Origin: a bacterium
GTDB taxonomy: Bacteria; UBP14; UBA6098; B30-G16
Assembly: GCA_021161555.1 (NCBI GenBank)
Contig: JAGHAI010000152.1
Location: forward strand, 1 to 32,740
Reading direction: 5' to 3'
DNA: 32,740 nt
The position numbers were made by a program, and so were the translations under genes. Below, piece after piece: positions 7,898 through 32,740 of the stretch. How positions within the stretch are numbered: the stretch's first letter is position 1; every line of letters begins with the position of its first letter. Under the pieces are notes generated by a model. The model was not told the origin of the DNA and searched no databases. It worked only from the letters and a program-made list of their open reading frames with translations.

Positions 7898-9109
7898 CTA
7901 ATAGAACTCATATCTCAAAGAGAGCGATATGTATGATGTCGAAATGTCGTCCTCGGGAGTTGTATGCCATTCGGGAAAATACGATGCGGAGAGGTCGGCG
8001 CGGATATTTTTTAAAATCCAGACCGAGCTCACTGCGGAGAAATCGACGAAATTGTAATCGGAAAAAGAAATGCCCGTATCGGGCGCAGATTGATAAAATC
8101 TCTTTCCCGGCTCGACTGTTAAAAAAAGCCAGAACTTGTTGTAGTTGAAACAATTGATTGAAATTTCAGCGCCCCAATCGGTGTAGTTTTCCATTGCGTA
8201 TTCTTCCGCCGCAGACTGCATTGAAAACAATGGTCCTGCGGAAAAATTCCACATTCCCCAATCGGTTCCCGCTGTCAGTGTGGTCTTGAGCCAGAAGTAA
8301 TCGAAATATACCTCGTCCTGCACATCGTAATTTCGACTTTCAATTTCAATCGAAGGCTCCACCATCACGCCAGGAAATGAAAGGGACAACTGCGAAGTAG
8401 TCCACATTGAAGCATAAGAACCCAGTTCCGTTTCCGACGGGAAATGCTTTCTGTCATATTCTAACCACACTTCTCCGAAATTGCCACCTGTCCACAATTT
8501 TGACAGCGACATTTGAATCTGTCTTCTGTCGTAATTCGCGTCGGCGGAATCGGGAACGCTGCGATATGAGTAGCACCATCCTGCCTCGCCATCTGCTCCC
8601 AGAAATGTAAACGAATAGGATATTTTTGAACGCAGGAGGTCATAGTTGTAATAGTAGCTCGATGTGGTCTCATATCTCTTTCCTTCCACCCACAATCGGG
8701 CGGAAATTTTTCTTGCGCCAAAATCCTGCGAAAGTTTTAAGTTAAAGCGATGCTTGCCATATCCTACAATGCTCTCGTCATTGTGATATGAAAATCTTCC
8801 CTCGATGATTTCCGAACCTTCTATTTCAAAAAGTTGAGATGCGAAGTTCCATCGGGCGACAAGTTGCGTCCAGGTGCTTTTGTCCCCGATGTCGGTGGAG
8901 ATTTCACCGCGAAGTGTGTGAGAACCGTATTTCTTCTCGTAATTGCCATCCAGCAAAAATTTTCCCTCGCTGGTAAGTGCGGTGGTATCATCTTCGAGAA
9001 TATTATATCTCTGTGATATAAAGGAACCGCCGACGCCAACCCTGAGCCAGGGAAGTTCGCAAAAACCAAGTGATACAACGAGAAAAACTATACCATAAAA
9101 ACTTTTCAT
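7898..9109 (-). CDS. Predicted outer-membrane beta-barrel protein of unknown function
   Basis: I do not recognise a named family. The 403-residue product begins with a short signal peptide (MKSFYGIVFLVVSLGFC). The rest is a succession of alternating polar/hydrophobic beta strands rich in Tyr, Trp and Phe, with short turns and longer polar loops. It ends in ISLSLRYEFY, the kind of aromatic C-terminal strand used as a BAM recognition signal. There are no repeats and no enzymatic motif. The stretch LFEIEGSEIIEGRFSYHND and the following strands resemble outer-membrane barrels of about 14-18 strands in general terms. It is convergent with the glycosylase gene and divergent from the transketolase gene. 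Surface channel, structural porin or adhesin are all possible. Confidence 0.7.
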   Translation of the reverse strand: MKSFYGIVFLVVSLGFCELPWLRVGVGGSFISQRYNILEDDTTALTSEGKFLLDGNYEKKYGSHTLRGEISTDIGDKSTWTQLVARWNFASQLFEIEGSEIIEGRFSYHNDESIVGYGKHRFNLKLSQDFGARKISARLWVEGKRYETTSSYYYNYDLLRSKISYSFTFLGADGEAGWCYSYRSVPDSADANYDRRQIQMSLSKLWTGGNFGEVWLEYDRKHFPSETELGSYASMWTTSQLSLSFPGVMVEPSIEIESRNYDVQDEVYFDYFWLKTTLTAGTDWGMWNFSAGPLFSMQSAAEEYAMENYTDWGAEISINCFNYNKFWLFLTVEPGKRFYQSAPDTGISFSDYNFVDFSAVSSVWILKNIRADLSASYFPEWHTTPEDDISTSYISLSLRYEFY

Positions 9110-10180: not shown

Positions 10181-11308
10181 ATGGGTCATGTTTACATTCC
10201 GGGTTTGAAGGTCGCTGAATATGAACTTGTGCGCAAAAGCAGAGTTCTTCCTCTCAAGGGCGAAGTCGTGGTAAAGGAAGGGGATTTCGTCGAGCCGGAT
10301 ACTATTGTGGCGAGAACTTTTTTGCCCGGCGCAGTTCAGGCTATAAATGTTGCCGGGATGCTTTCGGTTGACCCCGAAGATGTGCTGATGTATATGAAGA
10401 AAAAACAGGGTGATTCCTTTTCAAAAGATGAAATTCTTGCCGAAAGCAAAGGCATTTTAGGACTTTTCAAAACGCAGATAAAAGCGCCCTTTAAGGGGTC
10501 TGTGGAAAATGTCTCCAACATCACAGGTCAGGTTATCCTGCGCGCTGAACCCGTTCCTGTGGAAGTGAAAGCATACATACCGGGCGTTGTATCGAAAATA
10601 TTTCCCGAAGAAGGCGTGGAAATTGAAACCTGGGCGACATTCGTTCAGGGGATTTTTGGCGTTGGCGGTGAAAGATTTGGAACGCTTAAACTCCTCGTGG
10701 AAAATCCCGAAGATGTGATAACCGACGAACTTATCGATGGCACCTGCGAAGGGAAAATCATAGTCGGCGGCGGAATGGTTACTTCATCAGCAATTAAGAA
10801 GGCTGAACAGGTCGGTGTCGTCGGCATAGTCGTTGGCGGAGTAGAGGCTCAAGACCTGACGCAATATCTCGGATACGATATAGGCGTGGCAATTACAGGT
10901 TCCGAAGATATACCGCTGACTCTCGTGATTACGGAGGGCTTTGGACACATTCCAATGGCACAGAAGACATTTTCGCTTCTCAAAAAATATGATGGACATC
11001 AGGCATCTATGAACGGTGCAACACAGATTAGAGCTGGCGTGATAAGGCCAGAAGTAGTCATTAAACAGGATGAACCATCAGACGAGATAAAACAAAAATC
11101 GACAGGTCAAATTGCAGGAATAGAAATCGGTTCTATGGTGCGGGTGATTAGAGTTCCATATTTTGGAAAAATTGGGAAAATCAGCGCTCTGCCTGCGGAA
11201 TTGCAGCAACTCGAAAGCGAAACACACGCCCGCGTGTGCGAAATTGAGTTCGACGATGGAACGAAGGCAATCGTTCCCCGTGCAAACCTCGAGATGATTG
11301 AAGAATAA
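10181..11308 (+). CDS. Uncharacterised protein with barrel-sandwich-like and KOW/SH3-like segments
   Basis: I do not recognise a named family. There is no signal peptide or membrane helix, so a cytoplasmic location is likely. Residues about 5-55 and 75-125 contain repeats of a pattern seen in barrel-sandwich hybrid (RnfC, lipoyl-like or RNA-polymerase) folds: V-V-K-E-G-D-F-V-E-P-D-T-I-V-A and later IKAPFKGSVENVSNITGQVIL. Residues about 188-292 form a Gly/Val-rich alpha/beta segment (KIIVGGGMVTSSAIKKAEQ, then GVVGIVVGGVEAQDL) that recalls swivelling domains but without an identifiable catalytic residue. The last 60 residues (IGSMVRVIRVPYFGKIGKI ... EIEFDDGTKAIVPRANLEMI) look like a KOW/SH3-like barrel. 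AAGGAGG precedes the ATG. It stands 175 bases upstream of the FN3/DUF6754-like gene on the same strand and is probably part of the same functional cluster; that link is inferred from position only. Confidence 0.6.
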   Translation: MGHVYIPGLKVAEYELVRKSRVLPLKGEVVVKEGDFVEPDTIVARTFLPGAVQAINVAGMLSVDPEDVLMYMKKKQGDSFSKDEILAESKGILGLFKTQIKAPFKGSVENVSNITGQVILRAEPVPVEVKAYIPGVVSKIFPEEGVEIETWATFVQGIFGVGGERFGTLKLLVENPEDVITDELIDGTCEGKIIVGGGMVTSSAIKKAEQVGVVGIVVGGVEAQDLTQYLGYDIGVAITGSEDIPLTLVITEGFGHIPMAQKTFSLLKKYDGHQASMNGATQIRAGVIRPEVVIKQDEPSDEIKQKSTGQIAGIEIGSMVRVIRVPYFGKIGKISALPAELQQLESETHARVCEIEFDDGTKAIVPRANLEMIEE

Positions 11309-11483
11309 TTGTTAAATCAGCAAACGGGGATTGTGAAAAATATTGATGTGCAATAACAGCTTTGACGATAGGAACATTCATAACCCTGCTTTCTGAATTC
11401 GATTATTGAAACTGTTTTCATCATCGATTTTGACTTATTAAATTTATAGATGTAGATATAAATTAAGAAATCGGGAGGCATTG

Positions 11484-14210
11484 ATGAAAAGGCTCACCTC
11501 AGTTTTTTTGATTTTTCTCATTATCACATTCGCTTTTGCTCTGGCGAACAGCTCTTACGCTCCGAAACCGCAAACACCAAAGTTAATCGACATTCCAGGG
11601 GATGCGGGAACAAATGTTCTCTTGCAGTGGCGTCATTTCGAAACCGTGCCAGGAATACGATACGATATTTTGCGCAGCGAGGATGGAAAAAACTTTGAAG
11701 TAATTACGCCTTTGCAGACAAAGACAATCACCTATGAACCACAGGACCAGCCCGAAAACGATGTATCCGACCTTGGATATTTTCTCGTGCTTGTTCCTCA
11801 GGAAAACGACCTTCCCATCGCCAGGGTGATAAAAGCCACCGAAGAAAATCGGGATTCCATCATTTCTGCCGGCGGAAAGAAAATACTGCGCGTTGAACTC
11901 GGTGTTCCGCCGCTGGAAGAAATGGAAAAACTCCCAAATAAGTTCGCACTCGGAGATTTCTATCGTGTGATACCGGATGAGGAAATTGCGAACCGTCCTC
12001 AGCCTATGACCGTGCCTCAAAAACTTTTTGATGCGCTCGGGATAAAAATCCCATCGCTTGGAGATGTCAGTATTGAACTGACGCCGAAAGCGGAGGAACT
12101 TGAATTCGTCCGAAAAGGAAAGAGAATTCTCGCCGCTGGCGAAGACAATATGCCTCTCACGCTCAAGTATGGCAAACAAATCGTCTCCTTCGTCACCGAA
12201 GACGCGAGATACACGGTGAAAAGTGATAATATACAGTTTCTCGACCGAAAGAGCGATAAGCGCGATATGGAGGCGGGAAAACATTACATCTATAAAGTGC
12301 GGCTTTATCAGAAGGACATTCCCATAAAAAAGATCTATGTCGATAGCGATACCGCAGGAATCACGCCGCAGGATGAGCCACCTGTGGTTCCAGATAAAAT
12401 CGAGGCGCTTTACGATAGAAAAAGCAACACAGCGGTCATCCACATAAACCAGACAAGTGGTCTCAGTGCATTCTTCGACAATAAGACATATACGATATTC
12501 AAAACTACGGCAGAAGATACCGCCTGCGAAAGGGGAAGCGAAATTCGCAAAGTCAGCGCTTCCATCCGTGCTGTCATTTTGAAAGATGTGGATTCCACAG
12601 ATGTTTTATATATCGTCGTTGAAGATGAGGGAGGACAGACAACCAAGACCGGACTCATTCCCCTGACCCCTGTGGAACTTGAAAAAATTTCACTTCCACC
12701 CAATCTTCGCGTTCGCGATGTCGAAAATGACCGGGGGCAGCAAATCGCCATCCGCTGGGACCCACCGACACTTGCCGTTGGATATTCCGTGGAAGATGTC
12801 GCTCCAAAGATGATGCAGGAAAAAGTTGCTTCTAAAAATATATTTTACCTGCCCACCGAAAAGGGCGGAACACTATTTGTGGCAGAAGACCCATCACAGG
12901 TTCCCGATGGCGCAAGAAAGGTGTTGAATCTCTCCTACACAGTTCCTGGCGGGAAAAAAGTGCTGAAGATAACATATCAAATGTGGACAAATTCCGAAGA
13001 TAAAGCACTTTATGGAGAATTTTCCCTCGATGGTAAGGACAAAATCGACAAGGACAATACCGGCGAACTGCAATTTCGAAACATTGCCGAAGGCGAATAT
13101 TCGCTTATTGGACACATAATAAAGAGCAGCGGCAGCAGGCTCAAAAATCCCGAAGCGAACATCGATATGAAGATAGATGCCACGCATATTCACTCAGTTC
13201 CGATAGATGTTCCACCTTACATTTATTACATATATCGCGGCACTGACGCTGAAGACCTGTCAACTTTTGAATACGTAGGAAAGGTCGGTGCCGATGCCCG
13301 CGAATTCAAAGACATCTTTGATGATTATAAAACAGCGCATCACAAATATTATTACATTGTTCAAGCTATTGGTCCTGATGGCGCTGTGGCACAATCCGAA
13401 CCGCTTGGACCTGTGGAAGGAATCTCCAACTGGTTCAACACGAGCAAACTCGTGATATTTTTCGGCGTTCTCGTATTTGTGGGAGTTGCGCTATTCTTCA
13501 TCTATCACGCCAAAAGAGGCAAACAGTTTTACATTAGACCAATTGCCGGTATCGTCCACATCGATGAAGCGCTTGGAAGAGCAACCGAAATGGGAAAACC
13601 CATCGTGTATATCACAGGATTGGGATATATAGACGATATAGCAACTCTTTCATCGATAACAATTCTCGGAAGGGTGGCGCGCAAAGCCGCTGAATATCAA
13701 TGTAGAATTTTTGTCCCCTGCTATACTCCGCTGGTTATGATTGTGGCTCAGGAAACCGTTCGCAACGCTTTTCTTGACGCTGGTCGTCCCGACCTGTATA
13801 ATGAGGAAGATGTTTATTACATTGCTGCACAACAGTTTGCGTATGCGGCTGCCGTTTCTGGATTGATGATTCGAGAAAAGAGCGCCGCCAATTTCTTTAT
13901 GGGAAGATTTTACGCTGAATCGCTCATCCTGGCGGAGACAGGTGCTTCCACTGGCGCGATTCAGGTTGCAGGAACGGACGATATGACGCAACTGCCGTTT
14001 TTCATCACCGCCTGCGACTACACGCTAATTGGGGAAGAACTTTATGCTGCATCGGCATATCTTTCCAATGACCCGATGCAGCGAGGTTCGCTTAAAGCAC
14101 AGGACTTTTTGAAGGCTATAGAAATGATACTTCTCGTTGTCGGTTCTCTTGCGGCAACCGCTGGAATGTGGTGGTTCACAAACGCATTCCGCGCACTCGG
14201 TGGAGATTAA
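11484..14210 (+). CDS. Large FN3-containing membrane protein with C-terminal DUF6754-like domain
   Basis: A 908-residue protein. Residues 1-21 form a signal peptide or anchor. A long extracytoplasmic part has fibronectin-III-like segments: one at about 30-115 containing YDILRSEDGKNFEVI, another from about 405 with LRVRDVENDRGQQIAIRWDPP, and one before the membrane with YIYRGTDAEDLSTFEYVGKV. A membrane helix at 656-678 is followed by KRGKQFYIRPIAGI and an alpha/beta domain (about 680-875) containing KPIVYITGLGYIDDIATLSS, then a last helix near 880-902. From memory the C-terminal part corresponds to Pfam DUF6754, of unknown function; an HMM search would settle this. The ATG at 11484 is preferred over the adjacent TTG at 11481 because GGGAGG (11473-11478) sits five bases before it. 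Three small membrane-protein genes follow at spacings of 54, 13 and 24 bases, consistent with one operon and one complex. Confidence 0.75.
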   Translation: MKRLTSVFLIFLIITFAFALANSSYAPKPQTPKLIDIPGDAGTNVLLQWRHFETVPGIRYDILRSEDGKNFEVITPLQTKTITYEPQDQPENDVSDLGYFLVLVPQENDLPIARVIKATEENRDSIISAGGKKILRVELGVPPLEEMEKLPNKFALGDFYRVIPDEEIANRPQPMTVPQKLFDALGIKIPSLGDVSIELTPKAEELEFVRKGKRILAAGEDNMPLTLKYGKQIVSFVTEDARYTVKSDNIQFLDRKSDKRDMEAGKHYIYKVRLYQKDIPIKKIYVDSDTAGITPQDEPPVVPDKIEALYDRKSNTAVIHINQTSGLSAFFDNKTYTIFKTTAEDTACERGSEIRKVSASIRAVILKDVDSTDVLYIVVEDEGGQTTKTGLIPLTPVELEKISLPPNLRVRDVENDRGQQIAIRWDPPTLAVGYSVEDVAPKMMQEKVASKNIFYLPTEKGGTLFVAEDPSQVPDGARKVLNLSYTVPGGKKVLKITYQMWTNSEDKALYGEFSLDGKDKIDKDNTGELQFRNIAEGEYSLIGHIIKSSGSRLKNPEANIDMKIDATHIHSVPIDVPPYIYYIYRGTDAEDLSTFEYVGKVGADAREFKDIFDDYKTAHHKYYYIVQAIGPDGAVAQSEPLGPVEGISNWFNTSKLVIFFGVLVFVGVALFFIYHAKRGKQFYIRPIAGIVHIDEALGRATEMGKPIVYITGLGYIDDIATLSSITILGRVARKAAEYQCRIFVPCYTPLVMIVAQETVRNAFLDAGRPDLYNEEDVYYIAAQQFAYAAAVSGLMIREKSAANFFMGRFYAESLILAETGASTGAIQVAGTDDMTQLPFFITACDYTLIGEELYAASAYLSNDPMQRGSLKAQDFLKAIEMILLVVGSLAATAGMWWFTNAFRALGGD

Positions 14211-14264
14211 ATTTATTAAAATCAAAAAATGAACTTTGCAAAATAACGATAGGGAGGTTAGAAT

Positions 14265-14912
14265 ATGTTCTGGAAGAAAAAAGTGCCACTGATAATAGTC
14301 TTCATTATGGGTTTTGTAATGGCATTGCAATATTTTATTCCGTCCGATTTTTCACAGAAATTCTACGATACCTATCTGGATTGGGGAATTGTGATAGGAA
14401 TTTTCGGCGGAGTTCTTGGATACTTCAGTTTTTTCCGCGTGCACATTCACAAAGTTACCAAAAAAGCTCCGAACTGGCAATTTTCTCTCATTTCAATTTT
14501 ATGCAGTTTGCTTATGGTGGTGGCAGCACTGCTCGGCGGACGGGGAACGGGAAGTCTTTTTATGCAATTGTTCCTATACACAAGCGCTGCAATTAACGCC
14601 ACGGTGTTTTCACTTCTCGCGTTTTACATTTCCTCTGCTGCATACAGAGCATTCCGTGCCCGCTCGACGCAGGCAGCTGCGCTCCTACTTGCCGCTGTTA
14701 TTATGATGCTCGGAAGAGTTCCAATCGGTGATTCCATAAGTTTCTGGACGCGCTGGGGTTTGCCGTCTATAAATGAAATTTCTCAGTGGATACTTAATGT
14801 GCCGAACCTCGCGGCGAAGCGGGCAATCATACTCGGCGTTGGACTCGGCTCACTGTTGATGTCTCTGAAAATTATCCTTGGAATAGAAAGAACATATCTC
14901 GGTTCGGAATAA
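14265..14912 (+). CDS. Polytopic membrane protein of unknown function, DUF6754-cluster
   Basis: I do not recognise a family. The 215-residue product has about six predicted membrane helices: roughly 7-24, 40-57, 72-90, 100-123, 131-152 and 185-205. It has a positively charged loop (FFRVHIHKVTKKAPNW) between helices two and three. A GGRGTG motif lies between helices three and four, and RVPIGDSISFWTRWG follows helix five. There are no enzyme motifs, no ATP-binding site and no transporter signature. GGGAGG (14252-14257) lies seven bases before the ATG. The next gene begins 13 bases after its stop, with the ribosome binding site right behind the stop codon, so translation is probably coupled. Likely a membrane subunit of a complex with its neighbours. 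Confidence 0.65.
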   Translation: MFWKKKVPLIIVFIMGFVMALQYFIPSDFSQKFYDTYLDWGIVIGIFGGVLGYFSFFRVHIHKVTKKAPNWQFSLISILCSLLMVVAALLGGRGTGSLFMQLFLYTSAAINATVFSLLAFYISSAAYRAFRARSTQAAALLLAAVIMMLGRVPIGDSISFWTRWGLPSINEISQWILNVPNLAAKRAIILGVGLGSLLMSLKIILGIERTYLGSE

Positions 14913-14925
14913 AGGAGGAGTTTTT

Positions 14926-15753
14926 ATGAAATTCTTGGCTAAGCTGGAAAAACTTGACCGCAGGATAATATACATAATCATCACCATTGCGGTCGTGCTG
15001 CCGTTTTTCTTTCGGATGGGACTGCCTATTTCCGTCTCGCCCGAAGTGAAATCGGTTTATGATTTCATAGATGGGCTGACACCGAGCGATTGTGTATTCA
15101 TTTCAGGAGACTATGACCCACAGGTAGATGCGGAATTGTCGCCGATGTTCGACGCAATCGTGCGGCACTGCTTCGAAAAAAATGTGAAAGTAATTGTGGC
15201 AAATGTATTCAATCTGCAGGGCATCGGACTTGTCGAGCCGAGATTGAAGAAACTGGCGGAAGAATATCACAAGGTATATGGCGTAGACTATGCTTTTCTC
15301 GGGTGGAAACAGGGATTTAGCCTGCTCGTTATGGGTATGGGTGAAAATTTTAAGAAGACCTGGGAAACGGATTATTACGGCACAAGGCTGGAAGACCTGC
15401 CGATTACTCAACCAATCAGGAACTACGACCAGATTGCTCTCGTAGTTGACTTAACTGGCAGTGGTGTTTTCGGCGCATGGATTACCTATGCTTATGTTCA
15501 ATATCGTCAAAAAATTGCCGCAGGAATAACTGCTGTTATGGCAGCTGATGCCTATCCACAATTGCAGGCGGGACAGCTCATAGGTCTTCTCGGTGGGCTT
15601 CGCGGTGCCGCTGAATACGAACAATTGATTCATCATCCTTCCCTTGGTTCTGTGGGGATGGAAGCACAGTCCTGGGCACACATTGCTATTATATTGTTCA
15701 TTATACTCGGAAATATCGGATATTATGCCGCAAAGAAAAATAAGGAAAAATAA
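14926..15753 (+). CDS. Membrane-anchored alpha/beta protein of unknown function, DUF6754-cluster
   Basis: The 275-residue product has an N-terminal membrane helix (about 14-31) and a C-terminal helix (about 251-268) followed by a lysine-rich tail. They flank an alpha/beta domain of about 210 residues. That domain begins SDCVFISGDYDPQVDAELSP and continues NVKVIVANVFNLQGIGLVEP and GVDYAFLGWKQG, alternating strands and helices in Rossmann-like fashion. A later region reads ALVVDLTGSGVFGAWITYAY. By eye the order resembles the C-terminal domain of the 11484 protein (KPIVYITGLGY ... CRIFVPCYTPLVMIV ... EDVYYIAAQQ), so the two may be paralogous; this is an inference. GGAGGAG (14914-14920) lies five bases before the ATG. 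I know no characterised homologue. Confidence 0.65.
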   Translation: MKFLAKLEKLDRRIIYIIITIAVVLPFFFRMGLPISVSPEVKSVYDFIDGLTPSDCVFISGDYDPQVDAELSPMFDAIVRHCFEKNVKVIVANVFNLQGIGLVEPRLKKLAEEYHKVYGVDYAFLGWKQGFSLLVMGMGENFKKTWETDYYGTRLEDLPITQPIRNYDQIALVVDLTGSGVFGAWITYAYVQYRQKIAAGITAVMAADAYPQLQAGQLIGLLGGLRGAAEYEQLIHHPSLGSVGMEAQSWAHIAIILFIILGNIGYYAAKKNKEK

Positions 15754-15777
15754 ATATAAAATATATCGGAGGTCAGA

Positions 15778-16410
15778 ATGCACATAAACACTGATATATG
15801 GGTTCTAATAGCGGTGTTTTTTACGCTGTCAGTATATACATTTTTGTGGAAGGATAATCCACTCTACAAATTTGCAGAATCGGTAACCGTCGGTATTGGT
15901 ATGGGTTTTGCCCTTGTTCAGTGGTGGAATCTTTCAGTCGTGGACAGGTTCTGGGTGCCTCTGACCACCAGAGGAGCAGCTGGATATGTTCTCATCATCC
16001 CTGCAATTATGGGGCTTATGATGGTGACGAGAATTATTCCCCGCTTTGCGTGGATGTCGAGATATGCGCTTGCGTTTACAATTGGTGCTGGCAGCGGTAT
16101 GGTTCTTCCGCGAGCTATACAGGCGAATGTTCTTCAGCAATTATATGCGACAATGCTGCCAATCAATGTTTCCTGGACAGGCATAATGGTAAATTTATTC
16201 ATCGTTGTCGGCGTTCTTGCAGGATTGATTTATTTCTTTTTCTCAAAGGAACACAAGGGTGTCTTTGGAGGAATTGCCAACATAGGAATATGGTTTCTTA
16301 TGGTGGGTTTCGGTGCCACATTCGGATACACTGTAATGGCTCGTCTCTCGCTGTTCATCGGAAGAGTGCTTTTCATCCTGCGCGATTTCCTCGGTATGCA
16401 GCTGTTCTGA
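15778..16410 (+). CDS. Polytopic membrane protein of unknown function, last gene of DUF6754-cluster
   Basis: The 210-residue product has about six membrane helices (roughly 7-24, 33-50, 68-85, 95-110, 131-153 and 162-205, the last perhaps two). It has the loop SVVDRFWVPLTTRGAAGYV and a motif IIPRFAWMSRYALAFTIGAGSGMVLPRAI in the middle. Gly-x-Gly patterns inside helices (TVGIGMGF, TIGAGSGM, MVGFGATFG) suggest tightly packed helices. No known transporter or enzyme signature is visible. GGAGG (15768-15772) precedes the ATG by five bases and the gap to the upstream gene is 24 bases. It would complete a set with the 11484, 14265 and 14926 genes. The next gene downstream (16467) lacks a good ribosome binding site. 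Confidence 0.65.
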   Translation: MHINTDIWVLIAVFFTLSVYTFLWKDNPLYKFAESVTVGIGMGFALVQWWNLSVVDRFWVPLTTRGAAGYVLIIPAIMGLMMVTRIIPRFAWMSRYALAFTIGAGSGMVLPRAIQANVLQQLYATMLPINVSWTGIMVNLFIVVGVLAGLIYFFFSKEHKGVFGGIANIGIWFLMVGFGATFGYTVMARLSLFIGRVLFILRDFLGMQLF

Positions 16411-16466: not shown

Positions 16467-17261
16467 ATGTGTAAAATTACTTCACCCTCATATATGATAT
16501 TATTTTCATTCTTATCTATCCTGTCCGTTTTTGCATCAGATGATGTAAATATAAAGAGCGAGCAGGCAGAACTTTTTCTTATGCGGAGATTGGCGAAGGA
16601 ATTTCCCGCAGGTGCAGTCGTGGATGCAAAAGGGGCAATTTATTTTTCAACGCTCGACACGATGATAAAATCGCACATTTCCTGCCGATTTTCATTCGAC
16701 CCGAAAAGGCTATGGCATCCTGAAAGCGAAGCAATTGTGAAAAACTTTTTCAATGCCGGCGGAGTTTTCGTTCCGTTTCAGGATTCCACACAGAATATCA
16801 TATCAAAACGGGCAATCAGCCAGATTGCCGAACTGATTTCATATCCCTTTTTCATAGCATCCAAACGATTTAAGGGATATAATTTCACCGTTCGGAAAAA
16901 ATTTACCGAAATCAACGGAATTCGCTGTATAAAAATCTCGGTAAAGCCGAATTCCGATGAGAACCTTGAAGAATCGCCGATGACGGGGAACATATACATC
17001 GCTGATGATGAAGTTCACAGAATTGTTAGATTTGAACACCGAATACGAAGAAGTGGCGTTGAACAACTTATATGGTGGGATTTTAAAAATCTGGGCGAAT
17101 TTGACTTTCCATATAAGATTACGGCATCCCTCTCGACAGAAATGTGCGGTATGAACTATGAAACGATGATTAAAACATATTTTGCTGACCTGCAGCTTAT
17201 GATGCCATTCGATACTTCAAAACCAGTTCCCCGTAAGGAAACAACCACACAGACAAAATAA
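16467..17261 (+). CDS. Secreted LolA-like / outer-membrane lipoprotein-sorting-like protein
   Basis: The product (264 residues from the ATG at 16467) has a signal peptide whose hydrophobic core is MILFSFLSILSVFA, cleaved near S-V-F-A. The ATG at 16494, at the start of that core, is an equally reasonable start; neither has a clear Shine-Dalgarno. The mature part looks like the half-barrel of LolA/LppX/RseB-type periplasmic proteins: FNAGGVFVPFQDSTQNIIS, then GIRCIKISVKPNSDENLEES, GNIYIADDEVHRIVRFEH and later FDFPYKITASLS. Proteins of this fold bind lipids or lipoprotein acyl chains. The assignment rests on strand pattern rather than exact motifs. It lies 56 bases after the membrane-protein cluster and 17 before a PLP enzyme gene on the same strand, so it might be an extra member of the cluster, but this is weak. 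Confidence 0.55.
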   Translation: MCKITSPSYMILFSFLSILSVFASDDVNIKSEQAELFLMRRLAKEFPAGAVVDAKGAIYFSTLDTMIKSHISCRFSFDPKRLWHPESEAIVKNFFNAGGVFVPFQDSTQNIISKRAISQIAELISYPFFIASKRFKGYNFTVRKKFTEINGIRCIKISVKPNSDENLEESPMTGNIYIADDEVHRIVRFEHRIRRSGVEQLIWWDFKNLGEFDFPYKITASLSTEMCGMNYETMIKTYFADLQLMMPFDTSKPVPRKETTTQTK

Positions 17262-24630: not shown

Positions 24631-27207
24631 TCACTTAAATTCGTATCCCCAGCGCAGATTAAAATACCTCGTTTTCATATTAGATACTCCATAAGTAATA
24701 AACAATGGTCCAATAATGGTTTCCAGTCCAATCCCTGCACCGCTGCACCATATCGTCTTGGATGCCTCCGGCGGCATATCCTTCGACCACAGATTGCCCA
24801 TCGCTCCGCCGGAAAGAAAATACAATCTCTTCATTCGCCCTGTAAAATTGATGCGGATGTTTATCCCGGCATTCAAGATGTCATCTCCGAGAAGTTCATC
24901 CCCGCGAAAGCCCCAGATGTGATGCTTTTCGCCAATTGAAAATTTTTCAAAAAATGGCGGCGTGCCTGCAATATGCCCGCCAATTATCCACTCGTTCAGC
25001 GTGAACCAGCTTATCGTCTGATACATCCCGAGCCGCGCAAAAAATTTCGTGAACGATGTCTGCCCGCCCAGTATGTCCTGACTGGTCTCAAACGAAAGTT
25101 GATAAAAATTACCCTTCGTGGGAAATTGCTTTTTATCGTAAGAATCGACGACGGAATGAAGCCGCAACTTGTGAACTATGTAATGCTCAACATTGTCCTC
25201 ATTCACCGAAGCAACTCTGATTCTCTGCGTCTCAATTTCGCCCAGCAATGTTCCCAGTTTGCGCAACTGATGTCCAAACGCAACTCTGCCGCCATACTGC
25301 TCAACCCAATCGCTGTTCGTTATCTCAAAATTGTGAAAGTGGTCGTATTTCTCACGATGATAGAGCGCATAAAATTGAGATGTGAGCATAGTCTTCCATA
25401 TTCTATCCGCACCGATGGAAATAGAAGCGTCCTGCCTTCGTTCCCCACCATATCCTTCCAGACCGATGCGAAGCGCAGTTCCAAATAGATTGTCGTCGAA
25501 AATGCCGACCGCTCCTTCGCTGCGGTTCTTCTGGTCGTATCTTATGCCGAACCGAATGGCGATGTTCGGCTTCTCCTGAACCCTCACGGTGAGAACCACT
25601 CCACCGCTATCTCCCGGCGCGAGGTCATAGTTGACCCACTGGAAAAGACCGGTGGAATAGAGGGAAGAAATGCCACTCTGAACGCGATTTTGATTGAACA
25701 TTTCTCCCGCTTCGACGCCAAAATGACTTGCCAGAACCCAATGGTGGGTTTGCTCATTCCCCGAAAAGAAAACTTTTTCTATCCTGCAGGGATTAAGTTT
25801 CGCGAACAGCGTATCGCCGGAAAGATAGATTGTGTCCCACCTCGCCAGCGTAAATCCTCGTCTGTGCAACGCAATCGGAACCGAATCGAGATAGAAAACT
25901 ATACTCGGAAAATCCACATCGCAAAAATCCCGATGGCGAAATTTTTTCAAAACATCTTCGCAAACTTCACTTTCTGGAGAAATCACCACATTGCATATTT
26001 TTGGAAAAATTTTTCCCTTTATGTGCATAACATTCGGCGAACCAGACGACAGCGAACACACAACTTCGCTGAACCAACCAGAATTTGCAAGGTTTTGCGC
26101 TATCGCAATTATAGAATCTCTCGTATATATACCTGGCAGAGGCTCCGAAAAAGAATCGGGAATACAGGGAAGCATATTGCATACCGAATCGATTACGATT
26201 TCCCCTGCTGAAACATCGTTCACCGCCAGTTCGATTTCGGGAATCATCTTTTCCGCAGCCTTTCGCCCGCGAGAAATGATTTCTTCCGCATCGCCAAAAT
26301 CTGTGGAACGCCTATCTTTCAAATCTGGCTCTATCCACACATCCGCAATATTCTTTTCACTTTCGATTATATCTCTTTGCATAATTGTCGTCGCCTGTTC
26401 TGCGAGAGCGGACGGGTCTGTCAAATCAGTTTCCACAATGAGGTCTGCCGTGGTGTTGACGGCGATTATCTTCTTGCAGCCCAATTCTCTCGCCACTTCC
26501 ACAGGAACTGGCATCTTCAAACCGCCATCCACGGCAAGATGCCCGTTTACAGGAAATGGCTGAAATATCAGCGGGACGCCAATCGATGCTCTCATCGCTT
26601 CGCCGAGATTTCCATCGCTCAAAACAACAGCATTCCCCGTCGCTATGTCAGTTATCACACTGCGGAATGGTATTGGAAGGTTGTCGAAATCCTTATCGGC
26701 AAGCACATTCGCCGATGCGGTGAACTCCGAAAGCAGGTCTAAAAGGCGCTGCGCAGAAAGATAGCCCGAAGGAATGTATGGCTTCCAGTTCTTCAGTCTT
26801 ATCGTCAAAAAATATTGTTCCGCGCTTTCCCGCTGTGTCAAAAAAATAGATGTTCTCTTTGAAGCATCGCTCAAAAACGAGCCCAAATCGAGCGATGTCG
26901 CAAGGCTTTCCAGTTCGGACGGAGAATATCCCGCCGCATATAGCCCACCGACAATTGCACCGATACTCGTCCCGATTACGATATCGGGATGAACGCCAAT
27001 GCTGTCGAGAACCTGAAGAACACCAATTTGAGCCAGTCCACGAGAACCACCACCCGAAAGGACAAGAGCAATACCACACCCCTCCAATTCAACACTATGT
27101 TCCGAAAATCTTGCCCTGCGCAGTGGGTCTATGCGAATCACAAAATTTTTTCCGAAAAGTGCGGAACATAAAAAAAATATTATGAGAACGAACCCGATTT
27201 TCTTCAT
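24631..27207 (-). CDS. Patatin-like phospholipase fused to POTRA and outer-membrane barrel (type Vd autotransporter-like, PlpD/FplA type)
   Basis: An 858-residue surface protein that combines three parts. A signal peptide (1-19) is followed by a patatin lipase domain (about 43-330). It has the oxyanion loop SGGGSRGL, the nucleophile Ser81 in G-T-S-I-G, and Asp227 in the D-G-G motif, completing the Ser-Asp dyad. POTRA-like repeats follow, at about 360-400 and a clear one at 475-545 (IEKVFFSGNEQTHHWVLA), then a BamA/Omp85-type barrel (about 548-858) with NLFGTALRIGLEGYGGE and a C-terminal RWGYEFK strand. This is the layout of type Vd (patatin-like) autotransporters such as PlpD and FplA, although some relatives keep the lipase in the periplasm. 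It probably hydrolyses phospholipids at the cell surface or in the periplasm. It is convergent with kdsA and preceded on its strand by a broken gene. Confidence 0.9.
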   Translation of the reverse strand: MKKIGFVLIIFFLCSALFGKNFVIRIDPLRRARFSEHSVELEGCGIALVLSGGGSRGLAQIGVLQVLDSIGVHPDIVIGTSIGAIVGGLYAAGYSPSELESLATSLDLGSFLSDASKRTSIFLTQRESAEQYFLTIRLKNWKPYIPSGYLSAQRLLDLLSEFTASANVLADKDFDNLPIPFRSVITDIATGNAVVLSDGNLGEAMRASIGVPLIFQPFPVNGHLAVDGGLKMPVPVEVARELGCKKIIAVNTTADLIVETDLTDPSALAEQATTIMQRDIIESEKNIADVWIEPDLKDRRSTDFGDAEEIISRGRKAAEKMIPEIELAVNDVSAGEIVIDSVCNMLPCIPDSFSEPLPGIYTRDSIIAIAQNLANSGWFSEVVCSLSSGSPNVMHIKGKIFPKICNVVISPESEVCEDVLKKFRHRDFCDVDFPSIVFYLDSVPIALHRRGFTLARWDTIYLSGDTLFAKLNPCRIEKVFFSGNEQTHHWVLASHFGVEAGEMFNQNRVQSGISSLYSTGLFQWVNYDLAPGDSGGVVLTVRVQEKPNIAIRFGIRYDQKNRSEGAVGIFDDNLFGTALRIGLEGYGGERRQDASISIGADRIWKTMLTSQFYALYHREKYDHFHNFEITNSDWVEQYGGRVAFGHQLRKLGTLLGEIETQRIRVASVNEDNVEHYIVHKLRLHSVVDSYDKKQFPTKGNFYQLSFETSQDILGGQTSFTKFFARLGMYQTISWFTLNEWIIGGHIAGTPPFFEKFSIGEKHHIWGFRGDELLGDDILNAGINIRINFTGRMKRLYFLSGGAMGNLWSKDMPPEASKTIWCSGAGIGLETIIGPLFITYGVSNMKTRYFNLRWGYEFK

Positions 27208-28601: not shown

Positions 28602-31600
28602 TCATTTAATAAGTGTAATTTTCCGCTTAAACATATTTTCCTGCATTCGCAAAACCACAAAATAGACACCCGAAGACACCGCAGCGCCATTATCATCGTT
28701 TCCATCCCACACAAGTCTGTTCAGCCCTGGAATTCCTTCGCCTGAAAACAATCTTTTTACCAATGTGCCAGATATGTCATAAATATCTACATCAACTTTC
28801 TGCGAACCTGGTAAGTAAAACTGTATCTCCGTAGTTGCATTGAACGGATTCGGCTTGTTTGGAAGAAGAGAAGCAACTTTGGGCAGATGAGAAACCGAAA
28901 TTTTTAAAAATTCGTTTTTTGCCACATAACCCGTCATTTCCGACATATCTGCAGACACATCACCGTCGATGAGAACAAAGGAATAACCCTGTGGAATTGC
29001 ACTTTTATCCCATTCAAGCCTTGTTCCCGGGGAAAGATTTACGATAAAATCTCCATCCGGTTTCGCATCCCTTTCAAGACGATAGTTTTCGCATACAAAT
29101 GCAGGTTGACTTTTTTCCACATCAGGCGGTTGAGGCGGAATTATTCTGTCCATCTCATCAATCCCATACGAAGCATTTTCATCGAGCGCAATCGTAATGA
29201 GTTTTCCATCAGCATAAATATTAAACAGATTTTTCGGCTCACTGTACTTTTTTCTCATCAAAACATCGCCACCGCCGAAGGACAACATACATTCAGATGT
29301 CGCAAAAATCCAGTATCCACGCCCGACAAAGAGAGTATCGCCTGCAAAAGCATATTCATCCACCCCACAGGCGTCATACCAGTATATATTATCCGCAAGT
29401 ATTGCGCCATCAGGAACGGTGGACAGCGAGTCAACCAGGAAAAATCCGTCATCGTTTGCGGGCGTGCCGACCATATTCCACCCAGGCCATAGATGAACAT
29501 CAACCGATGGAACATCCATACCAGCCATATTCACCGCGCAGGAATCAAGTGTGAACACCCAGAAAGCCTTGCCAACCGATGGTCCGGGCAAAATATCATA
29601 AACAAAATGAAGAGGATTATACCAATAGCCATCCGTTAGCGCACCAGGAATGATTTCCCTTATCAGCATATCATCGGTGGGCAGAATTGGAAGACTCAAC
29701 ATATTCCACCCAGGACAGACATACAGCGTATCCCTGTGAAGTGAAGTCCGCAGAAAATCTATCGTTATCTGAACGGAATCAAGGAACCAGAAGGTCGTAT
29801 CGCTGTGCATATCGAGAGTTATATTGCCGGATGTCGTCGTGTATGTCAGTGTAAGCATTCCATCGGGCAGACCCGTTGGATTCCAGTAAACAAACACAGT
29901 ATCCCCCGGATATGTAGCGTATGCAATCCAGGTAATTGCGGTGTCGTCTGCACTGCGGAAATCGCGCTCGAGCCTATCGACAGCGGGATGTTCAGGGTCA
30001 TCGATTGGAAACCAGACATTCAGGTCGCCAGGGGAAGGCGGCAGACCTATCAAATCTATCGTGGAATCGTATCCATCGGTCGCTCCTTCCGCAGCTCCAA
30101 ATGTGAGCGAACTCATAGGAAGGTTCTTCGTCCAGAAATACATCGTGCCAGTCCATTCGGTCGCTTCCCAGCAGGATGTGAAAAAGCCATCTTCAGTATT
30201 CGCCATAAGCGCACCATCGTTAAAAGAGGCATCTTCAAAGGTAAGCGTTGAATATGCACCGAGATGAGAACCGACCAGGCAACTGATGTAGAACAAAACC
30301 CCCTGTCCAACAAGTTCACTTCCGCTGCCGGACACTTCCACAATGCCATATTCCGGCAATGACATATCGAGGTCGCCCCAGCCCGATGTGAGCGAACCAT
30401 CCTCGATAATATCGACAGGCGTGAGGACAGAGGGAAAATAACCGACAGAAATGTCGAACGATGTGATGCCCATTCCCGTGACATCTTCGATGGTCACGGG
30501 AATATCGATAACATCGCCAGGGCATCCTGTGGTGTCGCAAAGCCAGACATCCACTATATTTATGGTGAAGCACCAATCGTATGTCTCTTCGATGTGATTT
30601 GCATCGCAGTAGTCGGGGTCGGTGTCCGCAACATCGACAACAGAACAGCAAATAGTATCGCCGTCTTCCAGGGGAATTTCAGCCACATCGGGAAAAAACG
30701 CAAGAACGCCGTCAGAAAATGTGAGACAGTCATCATCTATGGTGTATTCCGTCCCGTCCACATCGAACACAATTGAAGCCGGCTCGACATCTCGCTCGCC
30801 ATCGACAATGTGAACTGTTATGTAGCCGAAATCCGTCGTTCCAAGAACTGCACCATCCGTCGGATATTCATCCGACACGACAGGCGGAGCAAGGTCAACG
30901 AAGAAAGTGCCGAACACATCTTCGAGGTCGCAGCCTATCGTATCCCGCGCATAAACTATTCCCCAGCTGTGATAACTACCATTTACCCAGTCTTCCGCAG
31001 GGGTGAAAATAAGACTGTCCCCAACCAGAGCAATGCGGGAATCGGAAAGGTCAAAAGTATCGCCATCGACGGCGAAAAGAAATGAATCAAGTTCGTTCGG
31101 CGAGTCAAAATACATCGTCAGCTGCAGGTCGGGACAGGAAATGACTGCATCATCAAATGGCGTTCCAATTTCACCATAAGGCGCAATAATTTCAGGAAGC
31201 CAGAATTCACGGCAGGCACTGAAAACAGTATCAATCGAAACGGAAGTAACATATACACAGATGGAATCGTGTTCTATTGGCGGATGTTCGGTGTCAATTC
31301 TTATGTGCCAGCTCGCATTTCCAACTTCGCCAGGCGAAAGCAGTGTCGTGGTGAAAGGTTCGGTAGGAGAATATCCCGTATCAACTGAAAGTCCTTCTGG
31401 AAGAATTATCGTCGCCATCGGGTCGCTCAGAGCGACGCCAGTGCCGTTCGTGAATGTCGCGAGAAGTTCAAATGGATTTTCAGTATATTCGCAATTTTCA
31501 ATGGACGGGAAAACAGGTATGTTTATCAGCAATTCCCCCGACAATGGTTCTCCAAGTCCGAAATATGTTGCCACGATAAGTGTTTCTCCCGGGCAAACTT

Positions 31601-32471
31601 CTTCGGGATACCACCAGATAAGCACCGATGAGTCATCGTAGGGGGAATGAGAAGGCGCCAGGTCCCAATCTATGTGATAGAAAGTAGGCCAGGAACCAAC
31701 GGCAAAACGGCTTGGTGGAACGGCATCAAAACCACACATAATACCCAGTGCAACAAGAGCATCAGGGTCTGTGATGTCCTCATAAGCATACCAATAACAA
31801 GGGAATGGCAGAGTATCTATATTCCAGAAATCCTCTTCAATGCCGGAATATCCGAGAATCGTGGAAAGTTCAGCGGCATCATTTCCGGCAATGTCCGTAT
31901 CAAGCTGGAGGAGAACACCGATATTGTGGCAGGTGGCGTCATTGTTTATGATGATGTATTTTATGAAAATTGTCCCTGTTGTGTAGGTTGGATATTCGAG
32001 ATATACAGGCTGAAGCCACTGATACACATCAACATCCATTCCTGGAATTTCATATCCGCCGTAAAAATAGTTCGAGTCAGTATTTGTGGGCCAGGTCATT
32101 TCCACCATACCAGGAGAAAGCGGATTCATAGATGTGCAGGAAGGTCCGCCACCAGGTGCCTTATAGGATTCCCCATCGACGCGCACAATGACATGTGAAG
32201 ACCACGGTGAAACCGGATATAAATATGTCAGGCACTCTCCATCGGGATATGTGCCGATGTTAAACCTGCCATAATCGACATCGGTAGTATTTTCATTAAC
32301 CTGAACGCCGATATAGTCATTGTGGATGAATAGAAGCTTTCTGCCACTTTCTCTCCCCCCGGAAGGATGAAGCGAGCGCTTCCAGGCAGAATATCTCGTC
32401 CCTTCGTATTCTCCGCCAGAGGCTAACAAAAATGCCATAGACACCAATATTAAAATTTTTAAACCGCGCAT
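28602..32471 (-). CDS. Very large secreted multidomain protein with cohesin-like domain and C-terminal sorting module
   Basis: A 1289-residue exported protein. The start is the ATG at 32471, where GGGGGTG precedes it and a signal peptide (MRGLKILILVSMAFLLASGG) follows; an ATG nine codons upstream is rejected. The N-terminal ~350 residues are an unrecognised beta-rich domain. Ig-like segments follow (DLAPPVVSDEYPTDGAVLGT), then at about 636-775 a cohesin-like domain (CPGDVIDIPVTIEDVTG ... FDISVGYFPSVLTP). Two similar segments with P-G-W-N-M near 917 and 994 come next. The end (about 1203-1289) is a FlgD-like module starting LPNKPNPFNATTEIQFYLPG with WDGNDDNGAAVSSGVYFVVL and closing KRKITLIK, as in type IX-sorted or related exported proteins of FCB-like bacteria. 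It is rich in Asp, Cys and aromatic residues. Cell-surface adhesion or binding is likely, but the ligand is unknown. Confidence 0.85.
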   Translation of the reverse strand: MRGLKILILVSMAFLLASGGEYEGTRYSAWKRSLHPSGGRESGRKLLFIHNDYIGVQVNENTTDVDYGRFNIGTYPDGECLTYLYPVSPWSSHVIVRVDGESYKAPGGGPSCTSMNPLSPGMVEMTWPTNTDSNYFYGGYEIPGMDVDVYQWLQPVYLEYPTYTTGTIFIKYIIINNDATCHNIGVLLQLDTDIAGNDAAELSTILGYSGIEEDFWNIDTLPFPCYWYAYEDITDPDALVALGIMCGFDAVPPSRFAVGSWPTFYHIDWDLAPSHSPYDDSSVLIWWYPEEVCPGETLIVATYFGLGEPLSGELLINIPVFPSIENCEYTENPFELLATFTNGTGVALSDPMATIILPEGLSVDTGYSPTEPFTTTLLSPGEVGNASWHIRIDTEHPPIEHDSICVYVTSVSIDTVFSACREFWLPEIIAPYGEIGTPFDDAVISCPDLQLTMYFDSPNELDSFLFAVDGDTFDLSDSRIALVGDSLIFTPAEDWVNGSYHSWGIVYARDTIGCDLEDVFGTFFVDLAPPVVSDEYPTDGAVLGTTDFGYITVHIVDGERDVEPASIVFDVDGTEYTIDDDCLTFSDGVLAFFPDVAEIPLEDGDTICCSVVDVADTDPDYCDANHIEETYDWCFTINIVDVWLCDTTGCPGDVIDIPVTIEDVTGMGITSFDISVGYFPSVLTPVDIIEDGSLTSGWGDLDMSLPEYGIVEVSGSGSELVGQGVLFYISCLVGSHLGAYSTLTFEDASFNDGALMANTEDGFFTSCWEATEWTGTMYFWTKNLPMSSLTFGAAEGATDGYDSTIDLIGLPPSPGDLNVWFPIDDPEHPAVDRLERDFRSADDTAITWIAYATYPGDTVFVYWNPTGLPDGMLTLTYTTTSGNITLDMHSDTTFWFLDSVQITIDFLRTSLHRDTLYVCPGWNMLSLPILPTDDMLIREIIPGALTDGYWYNPLHFVYDILPGPSVGKAFWVFTLDSCAVNMAGMDVPSVDVHLWPGWNMVGTPANDDGFFLVDSLSTVPDGAILADNIYWYDACGVDEYAFAGDTLFVGRGYWIFATSECMLSFGGGDVLMRKKYSEPKNLFNIYADGKLITIALDENASYGIDEMDRIIPPQPPDVEKSQPAFVCENYRLERDAKPDGDFIVNLSPGTRLEWDKSAIPQGYSFVLIDGDVSADMSEMTGYVAKNEFLKISVSHLPKVASLLPNKPNPFNATTEIQFYLPGSQKVDVDIYDISGTLVKRLFSGEGIPGLNRLVWDGNDDNGAAVSSGVYFVVLRMQENMFKRKITLIK

Positions 32472-32740
32472 ATTACACCCCCATCTAAAAATCACCATTT
32501 CTTCCCAGCAGAATAACCCTGTGTTATCTTTAATTTACATTTTCTGCTGTCCTGACTTCCCTCTCTTCACAGAATAATCTTAAAGTCTTCTGCGAAATTT
32601 CTAACTTATTGAATAATAATGATATGTATCACCATTTTTTGATTTTTTACCTCAAATCTACTTCGTTTTGCCTAATATCGGTTTTTTCATCTTCCTTTTT
32701 ACCATATTAGAGAATATTTCATAGGGTGTTTTCGTTCCCC

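Follow-up and report, generated by a model that had tools for sequence, protein, structure and literature searches.

A DUF6754 protein and its gene neighbors point to a probable, undescribed cytoplasmic-membrane complex

Five adjacent genes and their surroundings

The window analyzed here is the complete 32,740-nucleotide stretch of contig JAGHAI010000152.1 (assembly GCA_021161555.1), from a bacterium of the lineage UBP14, UBA6098, B30-G16. Five consecutive plus-strand open reading frames (ORFs), which we call A to E, were confirmed at the coordinates assigned to them in the initial annotation; they are listed below with the basis for each assignment.

Gene A, 10181..11308, plus strand: 375 aa, soluble; probable barrel-sandwich start, alpha/beta middle and KOW-like end; pairs with M, a MutL-family protein (ORF).
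Gene B, 11484..14210, plus strand: 908 aa; signal peptide, long extracytoplasmic FN3-like part, transmembrane helix (TM), cytoplasmic DUF6754 domain, TM (ORF, PF20539, charge bias).
DUF6754 domain in B, 13425..14186, plus strand: Rossmann-like alpha/beta domain with many invariant polar residues.
Gene C, 14265..14912, plus strand: 215 aa, six TM, both ends predicted inside (ORF, charge bias).
Gene D, 14926..15753, plus strand: 275 aa; TM, extracytoplasmic Rossmann-like domain, TM (ORF, charge bias, AlphaFold2).
Gene E, 15778..16410, plus strand: 210 aa; six TM, perhaps seven, with the N-terminus predicted to lie outside (ORF, charge bias).

The gaps within the last four genes (54 bp for B-C, 13 bp for C-D and 24 bp for D-E) match the original description exactly, and A and B are separated by 175 bp. 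Shine-Dalgarno sites had been reported for B to E only; these are present, and A has one as well, the stretches from A to E reading aaggagg, cgggagg, gggagg, aaaggagg and cggagg. An ATG start gives B its 908 residues, and a TTG at 11481 would give 909.

The suggestion that B is DUF6754-like proved right. Its residues 648–901 match PF20539 in Pfam with E = 1.7e-113 and 378.4 bits against a cut-off of 27, covering profile positions 3–256 of 257; the C-terminal 254 residues are a full-length member of the family. The FN3 label proposed for the upstream part fits by eye, but the window protein has no significant Pfam score for it; an fn3 signal was seen in one Cloacimonadota homolog of B only, below threshold (E = 8e-4). 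A, C, D, and E have no family match in Pfam or NCBIfam, and B, D, and A have no convincing sequence relatives in the PDB. For A, the SBHM/KOW label depends on weak matches (E 0.04–0.5) to SPT5 and the beta' subunit of RNA polymerase. A falls into a conserved family, A5, whose alignment columns are 63% identical on average, C carries the motif AxFSLLAFYIxSAAYRAFRAR, and D has a conserved DRR before its first TM.

Several other genes in the window were recorded. A 264-aa secreted protein with no family match (F, 16467-17261) follows E; it was considered as a sixth member and rejected, as homologs turned up in the window's closest relatives and nowhere else. On the minus strand lie a 403-aa ORF without a Pfam match at E<=1e-3 (7898-9109), an 858-aa patatin phospholipase fused to POTRA domains and an Omp85 barrel (24631-27207), and a 1298-aa protein with cohesin, FlgD_ig, and a Por_Secre_tail-like C-terminus (28602-32498); genomes of the window's class encode dozens of such sorting-tail proteins each. 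In relatives of the window (L031, L032, L039) the module is followed by a class-V aminotransferase and an indolepyruvate ferredoxin oxidoreductase-like gene, the latter being replaced in the window by a histidine kinase.

Linkage, co-inheritance and copy number across genomes

We surveyed 35 loci from other genomes together with 80 named loci, meeting at least 567 relatives. The order DUF6754 protein, C, D, E is the same across the surveyed loci with few exceptions, and 130 intact B-C-D-E modules could be assembled from the loci read. Of 150 B genes, 137 adjoin C, with a median gap of 12 bp; 132 of 138 C genes adjoin D (1 bp), and 134 of 137 D genes adjoin E (3 bp). Because the loci were fetched through DUF6754, the counts that involve B are biased; the co-occurrence searches described below are free of that bias. 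Carriers belong to at least 14 named candidate or recognized phyla, which are mostly uncultured; among the carriers are Zixibacteria, WOR-3/Stahlbacteria, TA06, Fermentibacteria, Eisenbacteria, CSSED10-310, Mcinerneyibacteriota, Cloacimonadota, Hyd24-12, Edwardsbacteria, Poribacteria, Latescibacterota, Effluviviacota, Planctomycetota (Scalindua, Anammoxibacter), Armatimonadota, and an Oligoflexia bin. B itself ranges from 266 to 1160 aa.

With dozens of homologs per protein in the same order, the arrangement of A to E is far beyond chance. The gene-neighborhood comparison proposed at the outset thus found the same four genes side by side in more than 100 loci and at least 14 phyla, and neither scattered homologs nor matches to known transporter families were seen. 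The initial annotation had proposed a dedicated complex of five genes. B-C-D-E stands as its core, but A belongs to a separable unit with a further protein, M.

The functional unit is in fact larger than the five window genes and takes in P, S, and M as well as A to E, seven or eight components in all, six of which have no significant Pfam entry. In many phyla the gene immediately before A encodes M, a protein of ~600 aa (adjacent for 24 of 27 M genes). M has a significant full-length match to PF13941 ‘MutL’ (439 bits), with M proteins generally scoring 390–460 bits over profile positions 1–450, and it contains the ASKHA-type motifs DCGSTTTK, VDIGGATTD, and GSGGV. Upstream of M are S, a small protein of ~90–120 aa with the motif PAxxFLES-KPLNFxGSQ, and P, with two TM and a weak YcxB-like match; S and M are adjacent in 21 of 25 cases and P and S in 17 of 17, with short gaps or overlaps. 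M, S, and P had gone unnoticed because none of them is encoded within the window. In the same genome, other contigs carry S (at G000:C48:8649-8897) and P (at G000:C29:3359-3736); M is present in a genus-mate (G001).

Several genomes encode, beside separate M and A, fusions of the two, 930–1013 aa long, at the following positions.

M-A fusion, L146:5726-8617.
M-A fusion, L147:894-3932.
M-A fusion, L148:8559-11426.
M-A fusion, L149:7659-10424.

No B-C-D-E genes were found next to these fusions in the stretches read, and they may put M-A to a second, soluble use.

A different gene order occurs in another phylum, that of genome G075, whose members include complete genomes such as G102. There, S-B-C-D-E-M-A form one tight operon (L166, L167, L168, L171), and L169 has the same order except that A is elsewhere, at L170; the loci of diverged A homologs in this phylum include L163 and L170. 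A was found in 21 of 22 DUF6754-positive genomes of the phylum and, mostly in diverged form, in 22 of 59 genomes in which DUF6754 was not detectable (p = 2e-6). The latter may have a diverged DUF6754, or A may have another role. In most genomes of this phylum M has lost part of its nucleotide motifs, and therefore ATP turnover cannot be general to the system. D reaches 870–1508 aa here (L166, L168, L169) through an added N-terminal part, which in L168 and L169 starts with a zinc-ribbon-like CxxC...CxxC and fits an N-in orientation.

Co-occurrence was assessed by Fisher test in a sample of 98 genomes around the window; counts are given as both, first only, second only, and neither. DUF6754 is present in 34 genomes and D in exactly those 34 (B/D 34/0/0/64, p = 4e-27). 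This perfect phyletic agreement backs the reading of one system, and it persists when the count is restricted to the 81 genomes from outside the window's class, with close to one genome for each family (18/0/0/63, p = 2e-18). A occurs in 30 of the 34 DUF6754-positive genomes and in one incomplete genome without DUF6754 (B/A 30/4/1/63, p = 9e-20), and B/M gives 28/6/5/59 (p = 8e-14). S was found in 31 of the 98 genomes and P in 28; the only DUF6754-negative genome with A, S, or P is G012, which belongs to the window's class and is 80% complete. DUF6754 occurs in 16 of the 17 genomes of that class and in none of 14 well-known control genomes. Searches for M came up empty in the window's genome (92.8% complete), G022, G073, and G092, as did those for A in G073 and G092, which means that B-C-D-E may work without the M-A platform.

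Copy numbers separate the two units. B-C-D-E is present in one to three copies per genome, while P, S, the ~600-aa M, and the ~375-aa A almost always occur just once in the sampled genomes that have them, extra M-A fusions aside; one M-A platform may thus be shared by several specialized membrane modules. The three tandem modules of Zixibacteria fall into separate clades and are old paralogs. Among complete modules, distances computed for B, C, D, and E are correlated with one another (r 0.69–0.77), and the four genes of one module share their nearest paralog in 63–70% of cases vs. 44% by chance.

That the genes are unrelated housekeeping genes merely kept together in one lineage is highly improbable: the window flanks (aminotransferase, histidine kinase, transketolase) are indeed unrelated, but the idea is already refuted by the fact that the genes are linked in at least 14 phyla, occur in two orders, and are inherited together even where they lie apart.

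Predicted folds and comparison with known systems

Structures were predicted with AlphaFold2 from alignments containing only window and fetched-locus proteins. Residues 646–908 of B, comprising the DUF6754 domain and both anchors, were modeled with pLDDT 92.9 and pTM 0.86, and D with pLDDT 95.2 and pTM 0.90. The two models have the same order of elements (TM, helix, six strand-helix units, TM) in a Rossmann-like layout. D had been singled out as a doubly anchored alpha/beta protein; it is one, but not alone, since the DUF6754 domain of B is likewise anchored at both ends. Foldseek searches of the PDB returned nothing at E<=1e-3 for either, only generic Rossmann matches with a TM-score of at most 0.54; both touch the same generic Rossmann proteins, e.g., the Moco carrier protein (TM-score about 0.5). 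Profile comparison detected no homology between B and D or between C and E (hhalign probability 1.5–6%). Counts of K and R residues place the DUF6754 domain inside and the D domain outside, and the N-terminus of C inside and that of E outside. Polar residues invariant in DUF6754 are (A6 numbering) R40, R54, E57, Q139, R152, E167, E173, Q182, Q191, D200, E206, E207, D229, and K232.

M shares the full-length match and the ASKHA motifs with MutL/GlmL (PF13941), which assists the coenzyme-B12 enzyme glutamate mutase as an accessory protein. It differs in being ~600 aa rather than ~460–500 aa long, and unlike the glutamate mutase accessory proteins it adjoins A and S, not mutase genes. Genomes with a classical short MutL (G065, G093, G094, G046) all lack DUF6754, and our search of the GlmL literature found nothing on the M subfamily. 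A link to glutamate mutase was rejected, its subunit E (PF06368) being above cut-off in one of 98 genomes only (G093, with a short MutL and no DUF6754).

Cytoplasmic ASKHA proteins also serve as scaffolds of inner-membrane complexes, GspL in type II secretion and PilM in type IV pili. By analogy, M would be an ASKHA-fold cytoplasmic partner of a membrane complex, with nucleotide motifs decayed in one phylum, and the system may work like these scaffold systems at the inner membrane. It is probably not itself a type II secretion or type IV pilus platform, as no PilM, GspL, PilN, PilO, or GspF family is present in the locus; clustering of neighborhoods revealed no secretin, pilin, or secretion ATPase that recurs in the surveyed loci.

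RNF and NQR likewise combine a pair of oppositely oriented six-TM subunits with an outer domain and a soluble subunit. C and E with their opposite predicted orientation, the outer domain of D, and the probable barrel-sandwich part of A resemble these redox-driven ion pumps superficially, in layout only. We consider such a pump extremely unlikely here, because Pfam and NCBIfam gave no Rnf-Nqr, FMN-binding, or NQR2_RnfD match, Pfam gave no Fe-S match, and the six-TM pair C and E has no conserved cysteines; the sequence evidence speaks against it.

The sorting-tail proteins in the window raised the question of a link to the type IX secretion system (T9SS), which is not required: nine DUF6754-positive genomes (G019, G023, G027, G031, G049, G050, G075, G092, G097) have no match to the C-terminal sorting domain PF18962, and others (G017, G060, G069, G094) have many such domains but no DUF6754. 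Anti-phage defense and a phage or plasmid origin were also rejected, with no match in PADLOC-DB or PHROGs and none on phages or plasmids.

A proposed membrane machine and its alternatives

That these genes form one functional system is well supported. Comparison at the sequence level points to two linked gene orders, co-inheritance even where the genes are unlinked, co-duplication of B-C-D-E, and fusion of M with A. A physical complex is likely, although co-occurrence could also reflect one pathway without physical association. On balance, we favor the view that A to E belong, together with P, S, and M, to a single undescribed complex of the cytoplasmic membrane with seven or eight components.

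In the arrangement we propose, C and E would form a polytopic membrane core, and B and D would each have a TM-Rossmann-like-TM part, with the B domain predicted in the cytoplasm and the D domain outside; B would also contribute an extracytoplasmic arm. M, with its ASKHA fold, and the adaptor A would make up a cytoplasmic platform, one of which may serve one to three B-C-D-E modules. We infer that M-A docks on the DUF6754 domain and that nucleotide binding by M-A alters the state of the C/E core. The invariant R, E, Q, and D residues of DUF6754 may line a pocket for a ligand, which would be passed to, or sensed together with, the outer D domain.

What such a complex does can be suggested only tentatively; an energized or switch-driven machine for transport or assembly is one possibility, as opposed to an enzyme or a sensor. 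Taking all parts together, it might represent an unrecognized class of membrane machine, in which M-A, as a nucleotide-switch platform with an ASKHA fold, drives a pseudo-symmetric assembly of B, C, D, and E, two topologically alike Rossmann-type domains on opposite faces hand over a substrate, and up to three modules share a platform; we offer this joint reading as a speculative one.

It is unlikely, in our estimate, that the system is instead a membrane-bound enzyme, with DUF6754 catalytic in the cytoplasm, D binding or delivering the product outside, and M-A serving in repair or activation, as reactivases do for B12 enzymes. The very high conservation of DUF6754, with its many invariant acidic and amide residues, would suit a catalytic domain, and M does belong to PF13941, a family named for a glutamate mutase accessory protein. 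However, the glutamate mutase E subunit is above cut-off in no DUF6754-positive genome, B and D match no known enzyme family or fold, and two polytopic subunits would be unusual for an enzyme activator system.

We regard as still more doubtful a role in sensing or signaling, where the B arm and the outer D domain would bind a ligand and so change a cytoplasmic DUF6754-A-M state that other proteins read. Domains on both sides of the membrane, the variable length of B, and the chance that M in one phylum is a scaffold without ATPase activity are all consistent with a sensor. Against this, no output domain (kinase, cyclase, or DNA-binding) is conserved beside the locus in more than 100 loci, and presence in 16 of 17 genomes of the window's class better fits a housekeeping machine.

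We found no description in the literature of the module, partners, or topology of DUF6754/PF20539, and to our knowledge the complex is undescribed. The Pfam entry describes a single domain of unknown function; B adds to it a module, partners, and a topology, and DUF6754 thereby gains a context. Annotations of ~600-aa proteins beside DUF6754 as ‘MutL/glutamate mutase’ are probably misleading. The system is near-universal in the window's class, and what were separate hypothetical proteins become a defined complex open to expression, purification, and structure solution.
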